Source of the DNA: Candidatus Hodarchaeota archaeon | GTDB taxonomy: Archaea; Asgardarchaeota; Heimdallarchaeia; Hodarchaeales; YT1-057 | Assembly (NCBI GenBank): GCA_016839955.1 | Contig: JAEOTI010000754.1 | Location: 1-15,876, forward strand | Direction: 5' to 3' | DNA length: 15,876 nt | Shown: positions 787 to 15,487 of the stretch, in pieces | How positions within the stretch are numbered: position 1 is the stretch's first letter | Layout: the number at the start of each line of letters is the position of its first letter | Program-made: the position numbers and the translations under genes | Notes under the pieces: model-generated | Seen by the model: the letters and a program-made list of their open reading frames with translations, nothing else | Database searches by the model: none | What the model was told of the DNA's origin: nothing

Positions 787-2466
787 TTGACGGAGAGTTA
801 TGAATTCTCAGTAGATCAAGAAGCGATTCAAAACATTTTGGGAAATACCCAAACTGAAAGAATACCAAATGACGATTTAATCATAGATTATTTCTCGCGT
901 CCAACTGATTATCAAAAGATTTTCAATAATATCCCAGCAGTTTTGGATGGGGTACGGGGAACCGGAAAATCCATGTACCTCCGCTACTTCCAAATAGGGA
1001 ATCAGCTCAAACTCATCAATCAAGATATGTCATTACGGATTTTTCCTGTGTATTTTAAAATAAATGATCAGTTTTTCATTCATTTCCATTCAAAGAATTT
1101 CAAAGACATTAATAGATTTGCAGAAGTCCTAAGGCATTACTTCAATTTGAATATTGTCCTACTGGTTTTGAATCTTCTACTCAAAAATAAGAAAGTGATG
1201 AAAGGACGATCAAGGTTTAAAACTGTACTTAAGAATTTTCTTCTAAAAAATCGCATAATTCCTTCTGAGGCTGAATCCGCGTCGAGAAATCTAAAGGCTT
1301 TTAAAAATTTTTGTGAAAACACCAGGTATAATTTGATAGAATCATTAAGAGAATGGAGATTAGAAGGGGAAAAATATGATAAATGTTTCACCTTCTTCGA
1401 AGACGTTGATTTCATATTTGAATTCTTTGAATTAATTAAGATCCTATTTTTCGGAAAAGAACCCACTAAGCTTTTCATCTTATTGGATGAGTACGATAAA
1501 CTTAATGAAAAACAACAATCGGTCATTAATTCTTTGGTTAAAGAGAGAAACACAAATGTGACATTTAAACTGGCCTGTAAAACTGGAAATTTTCATAATA
1601 GATGTTTCCCGAATCAATCTATTGATACTATTCACGATATAAGCTGGCATACGATTAATCAGACGTTTTTCAGTAGAAATATTTCAGAATTTAAAAAATA
1701 TGTTGAGGATATTGTTAATAAACGTTTTATGAGTTTAGACGAGAGGTTCTCTATAAATAAAATTTTAGGTAAATCTGAATCTATTAAAAATAGACTTACA
1801 AAAATAAAAGAGACAAAAAAAAGAGGGGGACTGAAATTGTCATATTTTGGAGCAACAGATGTAGTACGTGTTTCTGCTGGTGTTGTCAGATATTATATGG
1901 ATTTGTGTAATCAGATATTATCTGAAGGAGCTACAAACGGTTCAATAAAAAGTATCCCCCATCAATTACAAAATAACGCAATAATCTCATACTCCCAGAG
2001 ACAACAAAGATATGCGCAAAATTCAGTTCATGGAGAAGAATTTTTAAAATTGATCACTGCACTTACTCATCTTTTCCGTTATAGGTCACTCCAGGATTAC
2101 GTCCACTCCTCAACATTGAGTTTTAATATCCGGAATTTAGTAAATTTAAATAAAGAATCTAAGATGTTAATTAAAAACGCTGAAAGTGAAGGTATTATTA
2201 TAAGATTTGCGCGTCAAGAACCAGATGGACATTCTACGCAAATGGCATATGGCCTGAATGCAGTTTATGCACCAGCATACAATCTTCTACCGATATATCC
2301 TGATGCTGTCCAAATATCTGCTGATGCTTTTGATTTAATCTTGGATTCTCAAAATGAATTCTATAAGCGTATGAGAATTTCCCCTCAACCTCTGCAATTA
2401 CCCAAAATTCAGAATTTAGACAAATTTTTTCCTGATCCTAATCAAAATGATGATGTGAGTTCCTAA
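787..2466 (+). CDS. P-loop ATPase of ORC/Cdc6-like AAA type, putative defence ATPase
   Basis: This is a 559-residue soluble ATPase. A Walker A motif, GVRGTGKS, lies at residues 55-62 after a short N-terminal region. A Walker B motif, FILLDEYDKL, lies at about 230-239 with D234 and E235. The long spacing between them (about 145-330) is lysine- and phenylalanine-rich and probably helical. The C-terminal third (about 370-545) looks like a winged-helix or sensor region. The pattern AVLDGVRGTGKSMYLRYF resembles the ORC/Cdc6-family AAA or STAND-like ATPases that are annotated in prokaryotic conflict loci; this is from memory of the family. The start is TTG at 787, well supported by the Shine-Dalgarno site GGAAGGA just upstream. 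The stop at 2464-2466 overlaps the next ATG by one base, so translation is coupled. It probably uses ATP binding or hydrolysis to switch its neighbours on or off. Confidence 0.8.
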   Translation: MTESYEFSVDQEAIQNILGNTQTERIPNDDLIIDYFSRPTDYQKIFNNIPAVLDGVRGTGKSMYLRYFQIGNQLKLINQDMSLRIFPVYFKINDQFFIHFHSKNFKDINRFAEVLRHYFNLNIVLLVLNLLLKNKKVMKGRSRFKTVLKNFLLKNRIIPSEAESASRNLKAFKNFCENTRYNLIESLREWRLEGEKYDKCFTFFEDVDFIFEFFELIKILFFGKEPTKLFILLDEYDKLNEKQQSVINSLVKERNTNVTFKLACKTGNFHNRCFPNQSIDTIHDISWHTINQTFFSRNISEFKKYVEDIVNKRFMSLDERFSINKILGKSESIKNRLTKIKETKKRGGLKLSYFGATDVVRVSAGVVRYYMDLCNQILSEGATNGSIKSIPHQLQNNAIISYSQRQQRYAQNSVHGEEFLKLITALTHLFRYRSLQDYVHSSTLSFNIRNLVNLNKESKMLIKNAESEGIIIRFARQEPDGHSTQMAYGLNAVYAPAYNLLPIYPDAVQISADAFDLILDSQNEFYKRMRISPQPLQLPKIQNLDKFFPDPNQNDDVSS

Positions 2467-3503
2467 TGTATCTTTCTACTCAGAAAATAAAAGTGCTCTC
2501 TAAACCTCCATCTTTCTTGATTTTAGTTGCTGGATTCGAGGAAAGATGTCTTGGTATACTTGATTTAATCAGAGATTTAGATCTTCAAAGAACATTAATT
2601 CTAATGTTAAGATACCAATCCACTGATTTAGAAATAGAAAGGTCAAACAAAAAAAATGAAGAAAAAATTGAATTGTTTCTTAAGAAAAGAGGATATTCAT
2701 TTTATGAAATTGACATAGATCATCTGAATCCCTTCAAAACTCTAATCAAAATGAAAAAAATTCTGGAAAAGTGTTCTAAAGTTGAAAGATTGGATATTAT
2801 ATTTGATGTTAGTGGATGCATTGATGGATTAATCCCAATATTGACCAACCGTTTAATTTCGTTAAATCCAGCAAATTTTTCCCTTGTCTATACCAAACCT
2901 AGGACATACAAATTAATCAAATTTTATGAGCAAGGACGATTTACTAGCATTCAGAAACTTTATTCTGATCCGAAACTCAGCAAGCAATTTATGATGACGA
3001 GCGGGTTAGATAGAGTAGATTTCTATGAAGGATTGGAAGGGAATCCAAACCCTCTAAATCCTTATCGGATAATTTTTTTGGCAGGTTTCGAATTAAATAA
3101 AATTGAGGTAGTCTGCGATCAATATAGTGATTCTAGAAAGGAAATTCTGTTCGGCCAAAGTAAACTATTCAACACAAAAAAAGAGCAAGACCTCTCAAGA
3201 AAGATACATGAAAACTTAGATCCTGTTCTTCAGTTTGAAAAAGGAGTAATTGAGAATTTTAATGTCCAAGAAATTCTCAACGAGTTAAAGAATAGAGTAG
3301 AAGGATATCAAAAAGAAAATATTCTGATTTGCTGCTTTGGTACTAAACCTCAATTAGTAGCAAGTACCATAATAGGTTTGCAGAAAAGAGAAATTGGATT
3401 GGTTCGAGTACTATTAAAAGACTATCATCCAAAGTATTTCTCTGAAGGAAAATCGTCCTCCCTCCTAATTACTTTGAAAGGATTTGTTCAGGAGGGCGTC
3501 TGA
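2466..3503 (+). CDS. Alpha/beta protein with repeated AGFE motif, conflict-system type
   Basis: This is a 345-residue protein, probably soluble. The N-terminal half alternates beta strands and helices in a Rossmann-like way. A hydrophobic strand leads into AGFEERC (residues 22-28), then another strand RTLILMLRY, and later LDIIFDVSG. The second half repeats the opening: a hydrophobic strand runs into AGFE again at 206-209, followed by a C-terminal unit with FGTKPQ at 291-296 and a DYHPKYFSEGKSS stretch near the end. I have seen this type beside defence ATPases, but I know of no biochemical function. A nucleotide-sensing or processing fold is an inference. The ATG overlaps the ATPase stop by one base. 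The TGA is directly followed by the mini-ORF ATG (TGATG). Confidence 0.7.
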   Translation: MYLSTQKIKVLSKPPSFLILVAGFEERCLGILDLIRDLDLQRTLILMLRYQSTDLEIERSNKKNEEKIELFLKKRGYSFYEIDIDHLNPFKTLIKMKKILEKCSKVERLDIIFDVSGCIDGLIPILTNRLISLNPANFSLVYTKPRTYKLIKFYEQGRFTSIQKLYSDPKLSKQFMMTSGLDRVDFYEGLEGNPNPLNPYRIIFLAGFELNKIEVVCDQYSDSRKEILFGQSKLFNTKKEQDLSRKIHENLDPVLQFEKGVIENFNVQEILNELKNRVEGYQKENILICCFGTKPQLVASTIIGLQKREIGLVRVLLKDYHPKYFSEGKSSSLLITLKGFVQEGV

Positions 3504-4992: not shown

Positions 4993-5096
4993 CCACAAGA
5001 TGTAATGATTCTATGTTCTCCACAATTTATACATCTCCCTTGCCAAGTTTTTTCTTTTAAAATCTCTTTAATCTTCTTTCCTTGATAAGTAGTCAT
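4941..5096 (-). CDS. Small zinc-ribbon protein at the end of the R-M operon
   Basis: This is a 51-residue ORF too short for usual gene finders. The ATG at 5096-5094 is followed by a basic helix and then CINC (residues 22-25), CGHC (34-37) and CKTC (42-45). That makes three CxxC pairs, enough to bind one or two zinc ions. A GAGGATGAG stretch just before the ATG can serve as the ribosome site. It overlaps the last 29 bases of the endonuclease gene in another frame, so it is probably translated by coupling. Small zinc ribbons often bind nucleic acid or protein partners. Its position suggests an accessory to the restriction enzyme, which is an inference. Confidence 0.65.
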   Translation of the reverse strand: MTTYQGKKIKEILKEKTWQGRCINCGEHRIITSCGHCSIVLCKTCMKEHLE

Positions 5097-5757
5097 TTAG
5101 CTCATCCTCAGTATCTGGAGTTTGGCGTATTCTAGGTAGAGTGATCTTATTTAGAAATTTATTCAAATTAAAACCTGTATACTTAATTAAAAAATCATTC
5201 ATCTCTTCTCCTTGATAAACTTGCCATCCTTTTTTCATCCATTGGTTAATTGCAGCTGGTACATTATCCGTGGATCTTATTAGGAAAGCTGGTTGCCATG
5301 TACCATTATCTATTTCCTTTATTTGATCATAAATTTTCAAATAGCCCTCACGGATTCTTCTGTCAGCTGATCCATACCGATTCTTAATTTCTAAAGCGAA
5401 CTTTTCCTCGTCAAAAATTACAGGATAATCACAAAGCTGTCTATTCTTTGGCAGCTTAAAGGGTTCAGGAATTGGGTCAGGAACAAAACGTTCTAAAAGA
5501 ATGCCTACAAATAATTCGTACTGTTTTCCTAAAAGGGAATTCCAATCTTTTTTCCGAATATGATATGATGATGAAGAGATATGAAATAATGAATAGTAAG
5601 GATCTTCTCGTAACAGCTTACGTACTTCTTTGACTTTTGGACTGAATTCATCGTCATATTTATCTTGTTTTTCTTGAACTGCAACATTCAGAGCAACTAG
5701 ATACTCATACAATCTCTCTTCAAGGTCATTTTCTAATGTAAATTTTGGATAACTCAT
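5068..5757 (-). CDS. Type II restriction endonuclease, ApaLI-like, PD-(D/E)XK fold
   Basis: This is a 229-residue endonuclease candidate. D110 and then E123-I-K125 (in CDYPVIF and ALEIKNR) form a D...ExK nuclease core. The run after it, NRYGSADRR followed by PAFLIRSTDNVPAAI and a KKGWQVYQGEE strand, resembles from memory ApaLI-family enzymes, which cut GTGCAC. The specificity of this one cannot be read from the sequence. The N-terminal 75 residues are helical and charged and are probably involved in dimerisation or DNA contact. The ATG at 5757 lies 12 nt after the methyltransferase stop, with a GGTAGGAG ribosome site overlapping that stop. It would cleave unmethylated foreign DNA in the cytoplasm. 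The length is typical for a type II enzyme, and no key residue is missing. Confidence 0.75.
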   Translation of the reverse strand: MSYPKFTLENDLEERLYEYLVALNVAVQEKQDKYDDEFSPKVKEVRKLLREDPYYSLFHISSSSYHIRKKDWNSLLGKQYELFVGILLERFVPDPIPEPFKLPKNRQLCDYPVIFDEEKFALEIKNRYGSADRRIREGYLKIYDQIKEIDNGTWQPAFLIRSTDNVPAAINQWMKKGWQVYQGEEMNDFLIKYTGFNLNKFLNKITLPRIRQTPDTEDELNDYLSRKED

Positions 5758-5769
5758 TATAACTGTCTC

Positions 5770-7554
5770 CTACCCATCATAACTTTGAATAACTGTTCCA
5801 TCACTATCGATAATTTTCGCATACGAACATTTCTCTTTAATGAGAGTAACATATTGTGAGTTAATCTCATAGCCAATACTATTCCGATTCATTTCTCTCG
5901 CCACCTTCAAAGTTGTTCCTGTACCAAGAAAGGGATCTAAAACTGTTTCCCCATCAAAAGTAAACATTCGAATAAGTCTTCTTGGGAGTAAATCTGGAAA
6001 CACAGCAGGATGCCCTTTCCTTTGAGACACTGGCAGAATTTCCCAGATTTGCCCAAAATGTTGCATCCATTCAGATTTATCAAATTTTGATAAGGCAATT
6101 ATTTCTGGTGCTGGTTTAACGCGTTTCCCTTGTTTTTTGAATGTTAGAATATATTCAATATCGTTATTGATGATTCCATTGGGTGGAAATGGGTATGACC
6201 CGAAAACTCCTCCCTTTATTCCACCACCACCAATCGATTTCCCGATCTTTTTCCAAAAAATAGTGTTCATATAGTCCATACCATTATCTTCACAATATTC
6301 AATGATTTTTGAATGGATTGCCATTACTTTATAGCGTCCAAAATGTTCTGTTGAAGTAAATACATCTCCGACATTGAAACATATTCGTCCTCCCGGTACA
6401 ATGACCCGAATACACTCTTTCAACACTTGAAATACTCGTGAAACATATTTATCAAAAGCTTCCTTGTAACCAATTTGTTTTATTTGATCTCCATAATTCT
6501 TTAAATTCCAGTAGGGAGGTGATGTTACGACTAGATGGACAGTCTCATCCTGAATTTCTCTCATTAATTCACTACTATTGATATAAACAGTTTGAGAGAT
6601 TTTTGGAGTGGTAACAATCTCTTTCTCTTCTTTCTCTTCTAAATAATCTTTCACTCGTTGTCTTATTCTATAATTTGAGGGGTTATCTTTCTCAATCCAT
6701 TCCATGATCTCTGAAAAGAACTCTTTTTCTATTTCATCATTATTTTCGAGTTCGGTCAACAAATCATGTCTTTCATTTAATCTCTGAATTTCTCCTCGAA
6801 TTTGATCGTTATTATACCCTAATTTCTCAAATTTCACCCTCAATTCTGAGATGGTAGCTGGTGTCTGATCCCAATAAAGGATTAGAATTTCTTCCAATTC
6901 TTTGATACGAGCTTTTTCGAGTTCTATTGTCTTGATTTGTTTTGTAGCTATTTTTTCTAAGGCTTCTGTGATTCTTTTTTTCCCCTCTTTTATCTTCATG
7001 AATTCCTCCCAAGCCATTTTCTGTGGATTCTTACCGTAAGGTGCAAGACGGACGATTTGTAGCGCGTGTTGAAGCTTAAATTTTTTTTTATTATTAACAA
7101 ATATTTCTTGCATCTCTGGACTTAGTTTAGTTAAAGAAGAGTAGTGCTGAACCATCGTCTCTGATATTTTGAATTTTTTTGCTATTTTTCCTCGTTTCAT
7201 TCCCTCATCCTTCAATTTTTTGAAATAGTAACCTTGTTCTATCGGGTGAAGATAACCACCTTCGTGGAATAAATTTGATTCGAAAGACCAAGTATTAGCT
7301 TCTTCATCTGTGAGTTCAACAACTCTAGCGGTGACTTTATCTTCCTTCAATAATTCTAGAGCTCTTAATCGGTTTTCACCAGAAATTAATTGATATCCTT
7401 TCTTTGATGGGTGTTTTCTCACAATTATTGGATTTTGTAATCCAATACGTTTGATAGAATCGGCTAGTGCCTGAATTTGTTTCTCTTTAAACCATTTACG
7501 GTTACAAAACGTTGTCCGATCAGAAATCTCTTTAATCTGTATTTCATTGTTCAT
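5770..7554 (-). CDS. ParB-like domain fused to DNA amino-methyltransferase (beta class)
   Basis: This is a 594-residue two-part protein. Residues about 20-90 form a ParB/sulfiredoxin-like nuclease-fold domain with the GENR box at 59-62. A helix-turn-helix (about 118-142, RGKIAKKFKISETMVQHY) follows, then a charged helical linker to about 320. The methyltransferase comes next: motif IV TSPPY at 344-348 and motif I DPFLGTGTT at 540-548. The order IV before I defines the beta class, and SPPY is most usual for N4-cytosine methylation, though N6-adenine cannot be excluded. It should protect host sites against the adjacent endonuclease. I chose ATG 7554, which overlaps the upstream stop by 11 nt. 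An ATG at 7596 would add 14 residues but overlap by 53 nt. ParB-methyltransferase fusions are known from phages and mobile elements, so transfer is likely. Confidence 0.85.
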   Translation of the reverse strand: MNNEIQIKEISDRTTFCNRKWFKEKQIQALADSIKRIGLQNPIIVRKHPSKKGYQLISGENRLRALELLKEDKVTARVVELTDEEANTWSFESNLFHEGGYLHPIEQGYYFKKLKDEGMKRGKIAKKFKISETMVQHYSSLTKLSPEMQEIFVNNKKKFKLQHALQIVRLAPYGKNPQKMAWEEFMKIKEGKKRITEALEKIATKQIKTIELEKARIKELEEILILYWDQTPATISELRVKFEKLGYNNDQIRGEIQRLNERHDLLTELENNDEIEKEFFSEIMEWIEKDNPSNYRIRQRVKDYLEEKEEKEIVTTPKISQTVYINSSELMREIQDETVHLVVTSPPYWNLKNYGDQIKQIGYKEAFDKYVSRVFQVLKECIRVIVPGGRICFNVGDVFTSTEHFGRYKVMAIHSKIIEYCEDNGMDYMNTIFWKKIGKSIGGGGIKGGVFGSYPFPPNGIINNDIEYILTFKKQGKRVKPAPEIIALSKFDKSEWMQHFGQIWEILPVSQRKGHPAVFPDLLPRRLIRMFTFDGETVLDPFLGTGTTLKVAREMNRNSIGYEINSQYVTLIKEKCSYAKIIDSDGTVIQSYDG

Positions 7555-7864
7555 TTTCTTCGTCTTCCCACAATTCATTGATCTGGTCGGGATCATTCCA
7601 TATATTCAAAAATTTTATAACGTTTATTTTAGGATTCTTCTTGAAAATTAGCTCAACATTAGGATGTACAACATAAGCAATATGGAATCCATGGCAAGTG
7701 ATCATACTTTTTGTACGAAGATAGTTGATGGACTTTTGAATTTCTTGAAAGGAGAAATTTTCCCCCTGCATTTTTTCTATAAGCAGATCACGGTAATATC
7801 CTTTATTGCTTCGAATATTTTTCAAGATTCGAAACGAGAGTTCTTCTATTTTCACGCTTACCAT
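7544..7864 (-). CDS. Small winged-helix-like protein, probable R-M regulator
   Basis: This is a 106-residue protein and the first gene of the minus-strand R-M operon. Residues about 8-65 alternate helices and a short hairpin (helices through IRSNKGYYRDLLIEKM and FSFQEIQKSINYLRTKSMI, then CHGFHIAYVVHP). This suits a winged-helix DNA-binding fold. The C-terminal tail is acidic (WEDEENEQ). Its stop overlaps the methyltransferase start by 11 nt. By position it is likely to control the operon as small C proteins do in other R-M systems, although it is not a recognisable C protein. The ATG at 7864 has no clear Shine-Dalgarno site. The fold is inferred from residue pattern only. Confidence 0.6.
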   Translation of the reverse strand: MVSVKIEELSFRILKNIRSNKGYYRDLLIEKMQGENFSFQEIQKSINYLRTKSMITCHGFHIAYVVHPNVELIFKKNPKINVIKFLNIWNDPDQINELWEDEENEQ

Positions 7865-8086: not shown

Positions 8087-8506
8087 TTGAAATCGTGGTG
8101 TTGTGATTATATAAGTCGTGACTTATCTCAAAGCAGAATTGTAATGGAGTTCGATATGAACACAATTCAGCATTTAGGAATATCAATGTATGCAAGATTA
8201 CCTCCAGTATTAGCAGAACTAGTAGCTAATTGTTGGGATACAGACGCGAGTGAAGAAATAATCGAGTTGTCTGACCAGGATCCTGTTAATAAAAAGATAA
8301 CCTTGACAGGTAATGGGTTTGGAATGAGTCTTGAAGAAATTAACCTTAGACTTTTAAAAATTAGGAGAAATAGAAGAGTTGCTGAAGATACAGATATGAC
8401 TCCTGACGGGAGGAAAGTAATTGGTAATAAGTCATATATCCAACGGTTAATGTCCAAATCCCATGAAAAATACCCATGTATTGTCATAAATTATAAAATT
8501 AGCTGA
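8087..8506 (+). pseudogene. Truncated MORC-like GHKL ATPase (N-terminal fragment)
   Basis: The family match is clear from the ATG at 8144: MEFDMNTIQHLGISMYARLPP, then the N-box ELVAN (E25, N29) and WDTDA. This is the ATP-binding half of MORC/HATPase-type proteins, which are usually 500 residues or more. Only about 120 residues remain. The ATP-contacting Asp of the DxGxG box is replaced by Gly (TGNGFGM, G56). The expected IGRNRR reads IRRNRR, and the glycine-rich box after VIG is lost. A short IIKLAEFQI relic in another frame (about 8490-8513), ending at a stop, recalls the GIGKLAEFG part of the family. The TTG at 8087 adds 19 codons and is less likely as start. The intact protein probably worked with the helicase that follows. 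Confidence 0.75.
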
Positions 8507-8727: not shown

Positions 8728-11700
8728 ATGGGAGAAGAAACATCAAGTATAGCTTTTACAAAAGTAGATATTAAAAAATCTGTTGAAAAAGCTTGGGATA
8801 CACAAATAGAAGCAACTAATATGATACAGGATTACTTCATCCATTATCAAAAAATCATTGAAAAGAAATCAGCACTTGTTTTTATGCCAACTGGTAGTGG
8901 AAAATCGGGTATTATTGCACTTGTTTCGCGAAATTTACCTTATATTGGAATGGTATTAATCCTTACTCCACGAACACTACTACGAGATCAGCTTTGCAGG
9001 AAAATAACCTTTGATTATTATAATACAATTAAATTTCCAATTAAGAATCTTCCTAAAGAGGTTCAAAACGTTACAAGTAGTCGTAATTTTGTTAAAAGTC
9101 GTTCACCAAGGAAACAAGTATTAGTAATGACAGTACAGATGTTAGTGAGCATTAAAAAGAAACGTGACAAAATTTTTAGATATATCCTTAAAAATACCTC
9201 TTTAGTTATTGTAGATGAAGGTCATTATGAACCTGCATACAGATGGAGTAAAATCATACGGAAAATTAAAACACCTAAAGTCCTACTCACTGCAACCCCC
9301 TATCGTAACGACTATAAAGCATTTGATATAGATTTAAACTATAAATATGTTCTTTCTTATAAATCAGCAGTCAGATCGAAATACTTACGTAAAGTAAAAA
9401 TCATAAATAGACCATCCAATAATCGAAATTCACCTGAACAGTTTGTTAATGATGTAATCAACTTCTATGATACCATGGTATCGAATGGTAACTATACTCC
9501 ACGTGTAATCATACGTTGTGATAATCGAGCTTCTATTAGGCAGCTAGCGGTAATATTTAAAAAAAAGAAAAGAGATTTTTTAGGAATTCATGATAAATTC
9601 AAAAATACTAAAGATTGGGAAAGGAGAACAGTCCCAGATCCAAAAGATGAGAGTGCTATATTTTGGATACATCAATTTAAATTGTTAGAAGGGTTTGATG
9701 ATCCTAGGTTTCAAGTTTTAGCAATTTATGAGAAAATTGGAACTACCAAGTCATTTGTTCAACAGGTAGGAAGAATTATTCGCAATACAGATATAACGAA
9801 AACTGAAATAGCCTATTTTTTAGAACATTGGGATGGGTATCATACAGAATTATGGAATGGATTCCTTGAAACAGATAATATTATTGAAATAGAAGGAATT
9901 GAATTTTTTTATTTATCAAATGAAAAGGGTTTTCTACATGAATTGATTGAACACCAACCTAAGATTGCTTATGTAGATGGTAGATTTAGGTCAGAATTTA
10001 ACTTAGAAGAAATTGATCCAGAAAAAGATATTAAACTACCTTTAAGAGTTAATTTATACGAAAAATTGGAAAATTTTAAAATTGATTCATGTTTAAACTC
10101 TATTAAAGAACATTTTGAAGAAAAAGATCGTGTTGTTGAAAAATATGACACTTCTAAAGAAAATCTAAGAATCATTATATCGGTTTTGTGTAAAAACTCT
10201 TATTTTTTAAAAAATCACGTATTTTTTGAAGCTCACATTCATATTACAGTGCTCTTAGAATGTAAAAATTATATTTGCTTTTATGATAGCTCTGGATTAA
10301 AATTAATAAATGAAGACCAATTAGGTATTGGTAATCCTGTGGATGTTAAGAAGTTAAAGAGATTATTTATTAGTGGAAAAGGTAAAAAACTTGTAAAAGT
10401 ATCTTTGGAAAATTCTAACTTGGGAATATCTTCAATAAGATCTAGAAGCATTAGAGCTACTGCTATTGAAAATACTATACCAATGTTTGATGACAATGCG
10501 CAAATTTGCACTACAGCTGAAGGATATGGTTTCAGCAATCATAGACATTATGTGGGGTTCAAACGGGGACGAATTTCGCAATATATAGGCTATAGACACT
10601 TCCCCGAATATATAAATTGGCTAGAAAAAATAGAGAAGATAATAGAGACTGATCAATCTGTTCTTGAAATCTTTAGAAGATATGCCGAAGAAGTTCCAAC
10701 ACCAACCAATCCTGAACCTACAAGTATTTTAATAGATATAGAAGAAATAAGAGAAGTTTATTACCGTACCGGAACTGAGAATAATAGAGAATACATTAAT
10801 ATTGAAGATAAATGTATAGACATATCTAATAACACGTTTACAATTATTCATATAAATGAAGAAAACTTTGAAAATGAAGAAGCAAACACAAAATTGGAAA
10901 TTAAAGTTACCTTTGAGAAAGGAAAATATCACCTTCATAGTAAAATGGTTGAATCATTCTATACTCGAGAATCAGATGAATTTCCCCCTGATGTGATTAC
11001 ATATTTGAATAATTTCCAAGAATTTAGAATCCTACCTAAAGATACAAGATACGTTTATGTAAAGGGTAAATTTTACAAACCAGGTTTTTCGATTGGGAAA
11101 GATTTTGATAAAAACACGTATTCTTTAGGAAAGTGTTTCATTATTGATAAAAAAATTGGTGAATGTCGGCAAGAGAAGGGAACTGCTGAGTATTACAAGA
11201 ATAATACTAATAATTGGGATCCTAAATCTCTATTTGGTATAATTTCAAGGAAAGGTGAAAATACAACCATTTCACAGGAATTTGGAGATCCAACCTATTT
11301 TATCTGTGATGATGGAGCATTAGAGATGGCAGACTTCATTTTATGTGATGAAGGGTTATCTAAAATTGTTTTAATACATGCCAAAGCATCTGATGATTCT
11401 GTAAGTAAGTGTTATACAAGTAATTTGCATGATATCTGTGGACAAGCAATAAAAAATTTAAAATATTTATCAAGATATAATAAGTTCATTCCTCCAAATT
11501 TAAATAATTGGAACAATAACTGGAGTAGTAAAGTCAGTGGAGGATGGGGAGTTGTTAAAAAGAGAATTATAATTTCCCCAGGAGAACAAACTCCTCAAGA
11601 AGTCTGGAAACGAATCAGAACAGTTATAGAAAATCCTCATTCAAATAAAGAAGTCTGGCTTTTCCTCGGAAATACATTATCAAAGAAATACTTTGAGAAA

Positions 11701-11814
11701 GAACTCGGTAATAATAATCCTAAACCTAATGTCATTCATGCAGCCTACTTATTAGAAGGTACAATGTCAACAATAGGTGTAGAGGCAAAAATGAAAATAT
11801 TTTGTAAAGAATAA
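8728..11814 (+). CDS. SF2 DEAD-like helicase fused to PD-(D/E)XK-like nuclease domain
   Basis: This is a 1028-residue protein counted from ATG 8728; TTG 8719 would add three residues. The N-terminal half is a full superfamily 2 helicase: motif I MPTGSGKS (53-60), motif II DEGH (163-166), motif III TATPYR (188-193) and motif VI QQVGRIIRN (345-353). Residues about 400-820 are an unrecognised, beta-rich middle region. The C-terminal part has EMADFILCDEG with D869, then LIHAKAS with H884 and K886, and a downstream QAIKNLKYL. This is a PD-(D/E)XK-like arrangement in which His replaces the usual Glu. Such helicase-nuclease proteins unwind and cut foreign DNA in R-M-like systems. The MORC-like fragment upstream is a known type of partner. 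There is no Shine-Dalgarno site, but a TATA-like box lies about 24 nt before the ATG. Confidence 0.8.
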   Translation: MGEETSSIAFTKVDIKKSVEKAWDTQIEATNMIQDYFIHYQKIIEKKSALVFMPTGSGKSGIIALVSRNLPYIGMVLILTPRTLLRDQLCRKITFDYYNTIKFPIKNLPKEVQNVTSSRNFVKSRSPRKQVLVMTVQMLVSIKKKRDKIFRYILKNTSLVIVDEGHYEPAYRWSKIIRKIKTPKVLLTATPYRNDYKAFDIDLNYKYVLSYKSAVRSKYLRKVKIINRPSNNRNSPEQFVNDVINFYDTMVSNGNYTPRVIIRCDNRASIRQLAVIFKKKKRDFLGIHDKFKNTKDWERRTVPDPKDESAIFWIHQFKLLEGFDDPRFQVLAIYEKIGTTKSFVQQVGRIIRNTDITKTEIAYFLEHWDGYHTELWNGFLETDNIIEIEGIEFFYLSNEKGFLHELIEHQPKIAYVDGRFRSEFNLEEIDPEKDIKLPLRVNLYEKLENFKIDSCLNSIKEHFEEKDRVVEKYDTSKENLRIIISVLCKNSYFLKNHVFFEAHIHITVLLECKNYICFYDSSGLKLINEDQLGIGNPVDVKKLKRLFISGKGKKLVKVSLENSNLGISSIRSRSIRATAIENTIPMFDDNAQICTTAEGYGFSNHRHYVGFKRGRISQYIGYRHFPEYINWLEKIEKIIETDQSVLEIFRRYAEEVPTPTNPEPTSILIDIEEIREVYYRTGTENNREYINIEDKCIDISNNTFTIIHINEENFENEEANTKLEIKVTFEKGKYHLHSKMVESFYTRESDEFPPDVITYLNNFQEFRILPKDTRYVYVKGKFYKPGFSIGKDFDKNTYSLGKCFIIDKKIGECRQEKGTAEYYKNNTNNWDPKSLFGIISRKGENTTISQEFGDPTYFICDDGALEMADFILCDEGLSKIVLIHAKASDDSVSKCYTSNLHDICGQAIKNLKYLSRYNKFIPPNLNNWNNNWSSKVSGGWGVVKKRIIISPGEQTPQEVWKRIRTVIENPHSNKEVWLFLGNTLSKKYFEKELGNNNPKPNVIHAAYLLEGTMSTIGVEAKMKIFCKE

Positions 11815-11876
11815 TGTTTTAATAAAGCATTCTCTCCAGACAGATTGAATATTATTTTATTTGTCAATGAAAAGCA

Positions 11877-11914
11877 CATGAGAAGAATGGTTTCCTAGAT
11901 GTATACTTCTCATG
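11877..11914. repeat. Inverted repeat CATGAGAAG / CTTCTCATG with 20-nt spacer
   Basis: Perfect nine-base arms lie at 11877-11885 and 11906-11914, ten bases before a strong TATA-like box. The spacing (about three helical turns between arms) suits a dimeric regulator. A stem-loop that ends the helicase transcript is the alternative. Confidence 0.5.
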
Positions 11915-11924
11915 CATAAATAAA

Positions 11925-11934
11925 TTATATAAAT
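11925..11934 (+). promoter_or_regulatory. TATA-like promoter for the 370-residue gene and nitrilase operon
   Basis: TTATATAAAT in the 189-nt gap is the best TATA match of the window. It lies about 70-80 nt before the ATG at 12004, so a leader of about 45 nt is expected. It suggests that the two downstream genes can be made separately from the helicase. Confidence 0.4.
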
Positions 11935-12003
11935 AGGATTTTAAATAAATAACAAAGGAAATACCAAATAAAATTTTCATTTAATAAAATTTGTGGGAAG
12001 ATT

Positions 12004-13116
12004 ATGGAAATTAAAGGAGTTTATTTTGGTTTATGTGAAAAAAACACATCTGAACCTTCTTCAGAACGTTTTTTTATAATAAATCATCATCAAAACCCGA
12101 TAACTAGAGAATTAGACACATTACTGACAGCATATTTACAAAAGGTAATTGAATTTGGTAGATCAAAAAATGTAACAGAAGAATCATTTGGAGGAGAAAT
12201 TAGAGAAATAGATCATTCAGACCCAAAGTTGAAAAAAATTTCTATTAAGACTATTTTCGAGGATCTTATCCAACATTGTGATGATCCATCTAAGTTTGAA
12301 AACTACTTAACTCAATATGGATATGTACTAGGTAAGAAATATATTAAAATTGAGAACTCTAGAACAGGTTTATTATTCTTAGTTGTTTTCTCCTTAAATG
12401 CTGGATATTATATTTCATGTATTCGCACAGATTTGACAGAAAAACAAGAAATGTACTTCTTTGATAAAAAAAATAAAAATATTGAAGAAACTGTTCTAGA
12501 GCTCATACTACCTCAAGTTCGAGCTCTTTCTAAAGCTGGACTCTATCCTTCAATTATTGGAGGAAAAACCAAACCAAATAGAATAAAAATCATTCAAAAA
12601 GCTGGTTCTGCTGAATACATTAGAAAATTTTTCGAAATCGAAAGTTATCTTCACCCTTATGATGAGTCCGAATGGTTTTTTAAGACCATTCGTGAAAGTA
12701 ATTTAGATCAAGAACCAATAAGAGTAAATGAATTAAAAACAGAATATGAAAATCTCAGGAGTAATGAATATTCACCTCAGGAATATGAAGAACATCTTGT
12801 TCAACAATATCCAACAAAATTTTCAAAAAACAAAGTAGCTACTTTTTCAAAAAAGAGAAAAGCTTTAAGAGATAATTTACCTAAAACAAATAAGAAATCA
12901 TATGATAAAACAAGAATAGCATTACGAATACTCGATACTCGCTTTTTATTTGATATGGATAATCTCGAAGAAACTGTATTTCTTGCTGAAAAAGGGGAGT
13001 ATAAATATCTTATAATAAAAGATACAAGTGTAGATGTAGAATCTTTTTATGACAACCAGAAATTAAATGTTGAATTTAGTACATTAGATGAAGTCCTAAA
13101 GAAACTTGATGAATAA
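12004..13116 (+). CDS. Unrecognised 370-residue protein next to helicase and nitrilase genes
   Basis: I do not recognise a family. The protein is soluble and has two parts. Residues 1-230 mix beta strands and helices: a first strand IKGVYFGLC, a helix with LDTLLTAYLQKVIEF, and a hydrophobic strand pair TGLLFLVVFSLNAGYYISCI. Residues about 230-310 are charged and helical, with many Lys and Glu. The end (about 312-370) has strands YLIIKDTS and the helical tail STLDEVLKKLDE. There are no P-loop, nuclease triads or CxxC pairs. The ATG at 12004 has no clear Shine-Dalgarno site. The nitrilase gene starts 13 nt after the stop, so the two genes almost surely share a transcript and probably a function. 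It could be the adaptor or target-sensing part of the module, which is an inference only. Confidence 0.7.
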   Translation: MEIKGVYFGLCEKNTSEPSSERFFIINHHQNPITRELDTLLTAYLQKVIEFGRSKNVTEESFGGEIREIDHSDPKLKKISIKTIFEDLIQHCDDPSKFENYLTQYGYVLGKKYIKIENSRTGLLFLVVFSLNAGYYISCIRTDLTEKQEMYFFDKKNKNIEETVLELILPQVRALSKAGLYPSIIGGKTKPNRIKIIQKAGSAEYIRKFFEIESYLHPYDESEWFFKTIRESNLDQEPIRVNELKTEYENLRSNEYSPQEYEEHLVQQYPTKFSKNKVATFSKKRKALRDNLPKTNKKSYDKTRIALRILDTRFLFDMDNLEETVFLAEKGEYKYLIIKDTSVDVESFYDNQKLNVEFSTLDEVLKKLDE

Positions 13117-13129
13117 ATTTGTGTTGTAA

Positions 13130-15487
13130 ATGACCATAAATTTAATGGAATTGACAAATTTTCTCAAAAAATGGAAATCGAATGAAACTCCTTCCCTATT
13201 TAGTTGGAGAATTGAAGAGAATTTAGAAATTAAAAAACTAATTGAATTCTTCATTGATATTTCAGACCTTAAAGTTGAATACTCCGATTTACTCCGAATT
13301 AAGAAATCAGGTTTAGTGTTTAAATTTAACTTAGAATATAAGGACATAATACCTATTATTGATGATTTAGACAAAGAAGAATTTACAAAAATAATATCAG
13401 AGATAAATATTTGTGATACTCATTCTAAAAATTTTAAAGATTATTTCTTTAATTTTTATAATGGATCCTATAAGCAGAATTCACAATTTATTTCCCTCAT
13501 TTCAGATTTAAAGAAGTGTAATAATTGTAAATTCATTTTGAAAGGTCAAATTAATGTTAAAAAATCACAATTTATCAAAATAGTCAAACAAGAAATCCCT
13601 TTACCAAAAATACTTCTTTGGTATTCTTTGAAGTCATTTCAAAGTTATCTTGAACAGCATAACGTAATAGACCTTTTAAATGAAATATTTACTAGATATT
13701 CTCCATATTTTTTCCTTTTTTTAGATGGAGATGTTCCATGGACAATTGAAGACTTTTTTTGTTTTTTAAAACTTGATAATTCTGTTTTATCTAGACTTTC
13801 AAGTCTTAATTATGTATTCCAAGAGAAAGTCAAGGAATTAGGACGAATTAAAGATCAAATTGACAATTATATTGAAATTCAAAACGAAATGAATTTTCCT
13901 CCTCAACTATTTTATTCAAACTCATTTTATATTAATGGAAATTCGCTTTGGTTCAATTATGGAAAACATCTATTTGTATTTTCTGTTTTTAAAATGCTTC
14001 TTTCGGATGTAAAAATAGAAAATAAGAAAATTTTAGTGACAGAAAAGAGAGTTAATGTTTATTTTAATAACTCAGAGACATTGGTGATTGATAACATAAT
14101 TGTAGACATTGCTAATTGTCTACCTTCAGTTATCGAAATTTACATTAGAAGATTACTTGTTTTATCTAAAAATTCTTTAATAGAACTAAGAAATAAATTT
14201 AACAAGATTTTCCTTCAAAGAATTGATAGATTTGAAGAAAACTTCATTGAATTGGCTAGAAATTTAGGTATAAGATTTGAATCAATTGAGATTCCAAATT
14301 TTTCTTTGAATCCACGAATAGCAGCATTACAAATAAATATTGAATTTAACAAAGAAGTTTTTAGAGAATTTAAAACAGCAGGTTTATTTAACAATTGGAA
14401 TGATGAATTTAAGGAAAGACACAAACAAAAAATTATTCAAATTTTAAATTTAATTAAGCAATTGAATAAAAAGAAGAAAATTCATCTTCTTTTGTTTCCA
14501 GAATTATCTTTACATCAAGAATTTATTCCTATTTTAGAGGAATTTTCTAAAAATACATTAATTACTGTACTTAGTGGTGGAGTCTTTGAGAAATTACAGA
14601 TGGATCAAACAACTTTTTGGAAAAATACATGTCACATTATTGTTCCTGTAAGTGCAAATGAACCTGCTTTAATATATAAAAAAGAGAAGTTATTACCATC
14701 CAAATTTGAAAAAGGAGTAATGTCAGAAGAAAAAATTAAGATAGGGGATCTTTCTTATCGATTAACATATAAAAGGAAATCTATAATTATAGCTATATGC
14801 TCTGAATTTTTGAAATTAGAAGATACTTTTCCAAAAGAACAATTAGACGAATCACAAATGATTTTAGTCCCGCGAGCGACACCAATGAATCTAATGTTTG
14901 ATCATCAAAGCCTATTACTTAAGGATAAATTTGTGATACATGCAAGCCTATCTGGAACAAATATTGAACTGATGGGTCGAAGTGGTTTCTGGGGAGATTT
15001 AAATAAAGATTATGGAGGTATACGAGGTGAACGTTTACTAGATGAGTTATTTACGATTGGAGAGGGCTTAATAATTGCAAACTTTGATTTAACTCATCCC
15101 GAGGCAGCAAAGATGCCTACTAGCCCTGGATCTGTTAGTTGCAATTATGAAGATCCTCAAATGTTTGAATTTATCACAAAAGACAACAAAATAGTACTCA
15201 AAAATTTGCCTGTTCAAAGAACTTGGAGTAATTATTTTGATAAATTTCTTGAGACTGTAGGAAAGGTTATCAAGGATGAAATTATAAAAAGAAATGTAAT
15301 CTATACCTTCAATGAATTAAAACAATTGATTTCAGATGAAATAATACAGGAAAAAATTAATTTAAAAACAGATCTTGTTCCACATTTTTTATTTGCTTTA
15401 ATTAAAGAGAAAAAGAATTTTAGAATTTATGAAAAGCATAAAAAAAAGTTTAGAGAAAAAAAAGAAGATAATTACTCCCTACTCTAA
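13130..15487 (+). CDS. Nitrilase-family hydrolase with long unknown N-terminal half
   Basis: This is a 785-residue fusion. From about residue 398 (RIAALQINIEF) to about 690, it is a carbon-nitrogen hydrolase with the expected Glu-Lys-Cys triad: E458 in LLLFPELSL, K518 in YKKEKLLPS, and C557 in AICSEFL. The family cleaves or forms amide bonds of small molecules. Residues 1-395 are very lysine-, phenylalanine- and asparagine-rich, with no motif I know. I specifically looked for a reverse transcriptase YADD and a P-loop and saw neither. Residues 690-785 form a charged tail (KKKFREKKEDN). The ATG 13130 lacks a Shine-Dalgarno site and lies 13 nt after the previous gene. Nitrilase domains are fused to reverse transcriptases in one defence class (UG1/DRT type 1), so a role in defence is plausible; the fusion partner here is different. 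The substrate is unknown. Confidence 0.75.
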   Translation: MTINLMELTNFLKKWKSNETPSLFSWRIEENLEIKKLIEFFIDISDLKVEYSDLLRIKKSGLVFKFNLEYKDIIPIIDDLDKEEFTKIISEINICDTHSKNFKDYFFNFYNGSYKQNSQFISLISDLKKCNNCKFILKGQINVKKSQFIKIVKQEIPLPKILLWYSLKSFQSYLEQHNVIDLLNEIFTRYSPYFFLFLDGDVPWTIEDFFCFLKLDNSVLSRLSSLNYVFQEKVKELGRIKDQIDNYIEIQNEMNFPPQLFYSNSFYINGNSLWFNYGKHLFVFSVFKMLLSDVKIENKKILVTEKRVNVYFNNSETLVIDNIIVDIANCLPSVIEIYIRRLLVLSKNSLIELRNKFNKIFLQRIDRFEENFIELARNLGIRFESIEIPNFSLNPRIAALQINIEFNKEVFREFKTAGLFNNWNDEFKERHKQKIIQILNLIKQLNKKKKIHLLLFPELSLHQEFIPILEEFSKNTLITVLSGGVFEKLQMDQTTFWKNTCHIIVPVSANEPALIYKKEKLLPSKFEKGVMSEEKIKIGDLSYRLTYKRKSIIIAICSEFLKLEDTFPKEQLDESQMILVPRATPMNLMFDHQSLLLKDKFVIHASLSGTNIELMGRSGFWGDLNKDYGGIRGERLLDELFTIGEGLIIANFDLTHPEAAKMPTSPGSVSCNYEDPQMFEFITKDNKIVLKNLPVQRTWSNYFDKFLETVGKVIKDEIIKRNVIYTFNELKQLISDEIIQEKINLKTDLVPHFLFALIKEKKNFRIYEKHKKKFREKKEDNYSLL

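Follow-up and report, generated by a model that had tools for sequence, protein, structure and literature searches.

Three neighbouring plus-strand genes, P8, P9 and P10, occupy positions 8728 to 15487 of a 15,876-nt contig of a Candidatus Hodarchaeota archaeon (the full stretch is hereafter called the window). A sequence-only reading had described them as a helicase-nuclease, an orphan and a nitrilase fusion that together form an undescribed defence module. The listing of open reading frames (ORFs) confirmed three large adjacent genes on one strand, with the coordinates in Table 1; in composition-matched random sequence the longest stop-free run did not exceed 174 codons (100 trials). P8 and P9 are separated by 189 bp, and P9 and P10 by 13 bp. 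The GC content at third codon positions (GC3) was 0.20 in P8, 0.16 in P9 and 0.19 in P10, compared with 0.24-0.35 in each of the nine other ORFs of the window. Overall GC was 0.302, 0.284 and 0.263, respectively, compared with 0.275-0.349; the values of the three genes lie below those of 8 of the 9 other ORFs, the ORF at 181-747 having a GC content under those of P8 and P9.

Table 1. Positions of the genes and domains of the window.
Feature	Position	Strand	Evidence
ORC-CDC6-like ATPase gene	787-2466		Pfam/PADLOC profiles
CARF-type protein gene, directly after the ORC-CDC6-like ATPase gene	2466-3503		Triple-CARF profiles (CARF6, 4e-14)
ParB-N6/N4-methyltransferase fusion (608 aa), then 229-aa protein	5068-7864	minus	Profile scans
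GHKL-ATPase remnant, N-terminal piece of BbrUII/HgiDII-type restriction enzyme	8087..8506	+	NCBIfam NF050001, Pfam HATPase_c_3
P8 (PDC-S71 family), SF2 helicase with a PD-(D/E)XK-like region at the C-terminus	8728..11814	+	Pfam ResIII/DEAD, PADLOC
P8 helicase core, about residues 24-400	8797..9927	+	Walker A 54-60, DEGH 163, TATP 188, motif VI 345
P8 conserved nuclease-like motif region	11173..11454	+	E816, E866, D869, H884-A-K886, Q906, K909
P9, rare 370-aa protein; residues 1-194 possibly YejK-like fold	12004..13116	+	
P10, 785-aa protein, N-terminal part and nitrilase	13130..15487	+	ORF, PADLOC, hhalign
P10 N-terminal part, residues 1-355	13130..14194	+	No detectable relatives
P10 nitrilase domain, about residues 396-690 (both limits estimated)	14315..15199	+	E458, K520, C557

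P8 is a member of the PDC-S71 family. Its residues 450-1030 matched PADLOC model PDLC05077 with 158.3 bits over model positions 22-588 of 589, and the same model was matched by all 31 aligned P8 relatives; at E ≤ 1e-3, 252 homologues were found. The helicase-nuclease assignment of the sequence-only reading agrees with the Pfam superfamily 2 (SF2) helicase matches and, for the putative nuclease, with the conserved nuclease-like motif residues. Across the 31 relatives, E816, E866, D869, H884, Q906 and K909 were invariant and K886 nearly so, and E866, D869, H884 and K886 fit the strands and helix of the predicted structure (model pLDDT 86.3). We read this motif as one of the PD-(D/E)XK type by its residues, not by a family hit, and the C-terminal region would be a candidate nuclease; Pfam gave no family name to the C-terminus on the 31 relatives. 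The family had previously been listed as a single-gene candidate, so P8 itself is not new. Our literature searches found no text on PDC-S71, and most PDCs are described as unvalidated (PMC12988326).

The neighbourhoods of P8 relatives were analysed at 88 loci, 75 from genomes and 13 viral, some of them short; 12 of the 13 viral loci match only the helicase part. All ORFs of at least 60 aa were searched with P9, P10 and hidden Markov models (HMMs) of the P9 pair, NA37 and nitrilases. Outside the window, the 88 loci held no relative of P9 or P10 and no nitrilase of the DRT, TPR, LRR or UG profiles. Among the five nearest ORFs on each side, further helicase-like ORFs excepted, no cluster of neighbours covered more than 6 of 77 loci; P8 thus shows no conserved partner, as listed for PDC-S71. 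These results indicate that the P8 family is independent of P9 and P10. The sequence-only reading had itself named the absence of shared loci as the observation that would speak against its module, and for P8 this is what was found. Together with the wider gap behind P8 and the single-gene listing of PDC-S71, it leaves P8-P9-P10 as a three-gene module unsupported by the 88 loci.

The closest archaeal or named P8 locus (L001), in a Hodarchaeota metagenome-assembled genome (MAG; G001), encodes a full-length relative with about 51-52% identity, and the genes downstream of it are on the opposite strand. G001 belongs to a phylum that we take as Asgard, and against 227 genomes of this phylum P8 gave 13 matches at 1e-3; only those in G001 (full length) and G099 (residues 686-1031, 45%) were close, and the others look like generic helicase matches. 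A 387-aa ORF (L090:1363-2526), with a start resembling the P8 N-terminus and a matched part corresponding to residues 686-1031, represents a P8 version without the helicase, natural or assembly-made. A defence-gene scan around P8 relatives gave 242 PADLOC models for 110 of 291 near ORFs and 92 for 110 of 273 far ORFs (1e-10), a count that tallies models, not proteins, and from which the window, L044, loci with a helicase score of at most 150 bits and ORFs of less than 130 or more than 1300 aa had been removed; this enrichment is only a hint.

P10 carries a divergent nitrilase behind an N-terminal part of its own. It matched the PADLOC RTasNitrilase model with 39.9 bits (residues 428-564) and Drt1a with 31.5 bits (model positions 866-1017 of 1176), the latter match starting at residue 356, before the nitrilase; hhalign aligned residues 421-597 with DRT1 (E 5e-5, probability 67%). 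Alignment to DRT1 and TPR nitrilases places E458, K520 and C557 as the putative catalytic Glu-Lys-Cys triad, which, with the RTasNitrilase match, bears out the predicted nitrilase chemistry. When 21 nitrilases were aligned, every row had the Glu and the Cys, whereas the Lys was in register in P10 and 13 of the 20 others (14 rows); it was out of register in the six DRT1-type rows and G082, and its correspondence to the DRT1 Lys comes from hhalign. Pfam CN_hydrolase (PF00795) did not match P10 at E ≤ 1, and was also silent on the nitrilase of locus L140, a Drt1a match at 418 bits, so this model does not define the superfamily.

The C-terminal half of P10 scored 25.6 bits with a small DRT1-type HMM and 25.1 bits with one of Asgard TPR nitrilases, where the best of 200 shuffles reached 2.6 and 4.8; the LRR (7.6, shuffles 4.0) and UG (6.3, shuffles 5.6) scores were hardly over the shuffles. 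The "DRT1" group in the HMM and the tree comprises six rows, of which five are truncated by the end of the locus and the sixth (G319, that is, L140) is a stand-alone nitrilase. Since the DRT1 and TPR scores are equal, P10 is, as judged by sequence, a divergent member of a wider set of nitrilases rather than a DRT1 nitrilase in particular; in the nitrilase tree it sits on a long branch without a firm placement. No reverse transcriptase (RT) family was matched by P10 in Pfam, PADLOC or NCBIfam, and no CARF at E ≤ 1 in PADLOC or Pfam. Residues 1-355 had no match in Pfam, PADLOC, NCBIfam or protein-database searches, a PHROGs row at E 0.33 being at chance level. At E ≤ 1e-3, no relative of P10 besides itself was found among 5.8 billion proteins, scoring having been limited to the 7991 candidates with the most words in common. 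Plasmids and phages gave no match, and the 227 genomes gave none at 1e-3, with four rows at 0.006-0.08, of which one ORF (L103) has by eye the look of an alcohol dehydrogenase.

A single relative of P9 is known, from a Hermodarchaeota MAG (2662-base contig); with the nearest named P8 locus in a Hodarchaeota MAG, this points to a probable Asgard host. The 227 genomes gave no P9 match at E ≤ 1e-3, a search with no known positive, without which an empty answer shows nothing. The P9 pair gave five rows there (E 0.009-0.097), which we take as chance; the four inspected (L161, L162, L164 and L165) were by eye transporter-ATPase-like, TruB/Cbf5-like or other frames. Viral contigs held no match to P9, the P9 pair or P10. 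An assignment of P9 to NA37/YejK by sequence was rejected, as there was no match to Pfam PF04245, the hhalign probability was 0.1% and scores lay among those of shuffles. Residues 1-194 possibly adopt a YejK-like fold, a lead from a low-confidence model, and P9 is therefore a candidate DNA-binding protein. A YejK domain figures among those for which a role in phage defence was newly validated (PMC13092281).

Because genes for an ORC-CDC6-like ATPase, a CARF-type protein, a ParB-methyltransferase and a BbrUII/HgiDII-type remnant are present, the window is defence-like, in agreement with the sequence-only reading. The remnant matched NF050001 with 82.7 bits over model positions 3-96 of 659; it is part of the setting and of none of the systems proposed here. 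The ORC-CDC6-like ATPase and CARF-type genes (787-3503) are possibly a signalling pair. The 229-aa protein behind the ParB-methyltransferase fusion matched no family over the cut-off and is PD-(D/E)XK nuclease-like by eye, and the two may form a restriction-modification pair.

We favour, with about an even chance of being right, a reading in which this defence-like region holds two units, P8 alone and a P9-P10 pair, working as follows. P8 alone would most likely translocate on or inspect DNA, its C-terminal nuclease cutting DNA that is foreign or damaged, in a way similar to the joint action of the Hachiman helicase and nuclease subunits. P9 and P10, being 13 bp apart, are probably co-transcribed as one operon. 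P10 would be a nitrilase effector without an RT which, once active, splits an essential small molecule hydrolytically at a C-N bond and stops the cell, as has been proposed for the DRT1 nitrilase. Since the nitrilase is retained in P10 and no RT is seen there, a different trigger would be needed, for which the N-terminal part of P10 and the DNA-binding candidate P9 are the most evident sources. In its full form, an undescribed archaeal abortive-infection pair in which a YejK-fold DNA-binding protein, instead of an RT or cyclic nucleotide, releases a DRT-type nitrilase, with nitrilases as interchangeable warheads for many archaeal and bacterial sensors, this proposal is tentative and on balance unlikely.

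Several observations weigh against the two-unit reading. The DRT-type nitrilase model was matched in 60 of the 227 genomes. At L157:5255-17021, L160:3224-11010, L158:2721-5336 and L159:2940-5624, such a nitrilase ends larger proteins: those of about 1280 aa, with TPR/alpha-SNAP-like repeats, form tandem arrays of two or three, and one of 871 aa, whose start is longin-like, has Ras-like GTPase, JAB and E1-like genes nearby (named by eye). These settings do not look like defence. A stand-alone nitrilase of a Pseudomonadota genome (L140:8761-9642) lies among genes that by eye are of the polysaccharide-biosynthesis type, a cluster of metabolic appearance. The nitrilase alone is thus no proof of a defence role, and since the nitrilases of L136 and L140 also have no RT, the absence of an RT is not unique to P10. 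The low GC3 and GC common to P8, P9 and P10 would be compatible with joint arrival.

On these grounds P9-P10 could be a cellular amidase or nitrilase with a helper, like the Asgard repeat-nitrilase proteins, placed by chance in a defence-like region; the equal score of P10 against the Asgard TPR group fits this. We consider it unlikely, as the N-terminal part of P10 was not matched to the repeat-nitrilase proteins, our searches show P9-P10 to be extremely rare and the pair sits among defence-type genes. It is quite doubtful that all three genes form one module, with P8 processing DNA, P9 binding the product and P10 being switched on by it. Shared strand, adjacency and low GC3 agree with such a module, and T4 mutants escaping DRT1 are reported to map to a phage DNA helicase (PMC13275509), which makes triggering of a nitrilase via DNA processing plausible; the lack of P9, P10 and nitrilase relatives at the 88 P8 loci, the gap behind P8 and the opposite strand of the downstream genes in L001 argue against it. 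That P10 is what decay or rearrangement left of a DRT-type RT-nitrilase gene and no longer works, as the undetected RT and the early start of the Drt1a homology might suggest, is very improbable, with 785 codons open, E, K and C in place and the remainder replaced by about 355 residues of coding sequence.

In the literature and database searches made, no described system had the set of P8, P9 and P10, as the sequence-only reading had stated, and in searches of the open-licence PubMed Central literature we met no account of a nitrilase effector that has a YejK-like protein as its partner. If the two-unit reading is true and P9-P10 works as proposed, the pair, found at one locus only, would add to the sensor-nitrilase theme of DRT1, UG5 and CARF-nitrilase. 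A nitrilase of this kind, with a different sensor and no RT, would allow work on the effector separately from DNA synthesis. It would suggest that what can be transferred is the nitrilase and not the polymerase, and would extend a mostly bacterial field by a probable archaeal example.

Among known systems, Hachiman (HamA DUF1837 nuclease and HamB SF2 helicase; mechanism in PMC12278908) combines an SF2 helicase with a nuclease, as does P8 with its putative nuclease, whereas P8 is one fused chain. The P8 helicase part matched HamB models at 1.6e-6 and weaker, and HamA was matched in PADLOC by none of P8, P9, P10 and the other scanned window proteins (for protein 5, among the matches listed). P8 matches the PDC-S71 model as its relatives do, but in the window it precedes two genes without counterpart at the fetched relatives. 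P9 has no sequence similarity to E. coli YejK/NA37, its possible likeness in fold coming from the low-confidence model. The upstream remnant resembles BbrUII/HgiDII restriction enzymes of the GHKL ATPase type, of which only the N-terminal piece is present.

For an amide hydrolase tied to DNA processing, which the sequence-only reading had suggested without naming a precedent, the published parallel is DRT1 (PMC13275509), whose authors leave open the nitrilase substrate and the complete activation pathway. P10 and the DRT1/UG1 RT-nitrilase share a nitrilase with aligned E, K and C and homology that begins ahead of it, but P10 has no detectable RT, another N-terminal part and a separate partner gene, P9. 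An SF2-helicase-like gene (L106:3284-4539, by eye) directly follows an RT-nitrilase gene in a Duganella genome. CARF-nitrilase (PADLOC CARF_m7) and UG5-nitrilase fuse a sensor to a divergent nitrilase, as proposed for P10. Both models are matched by L136 and L139 but neither by P10, in which no CARF or RT was matched. The stand-alone DRT-like nitrilases of L136 and L140 have no RT in the same gene, as in P10, but occur in other settings and without its N-terminal part; that of L136 (91-1479, 99 bits) has a C-terminal extension, and its neighbours up to 11889, a restriction-modification-like gene, two TIR-like genes and a large P-loop gene by eye, are defence-like. Leucine-rich repeats (Pfam) are fused to a divergent nitrilase in L137:8027-10099 and L138:7851-9656, from the phylum of G001. 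Like P10, the Asgard TPR-, LRR- and longin-like proteins carry a divergent C-terminal nitrilase in a larger protein, but they have other N-terminal parts and are multi-copy and widespread.

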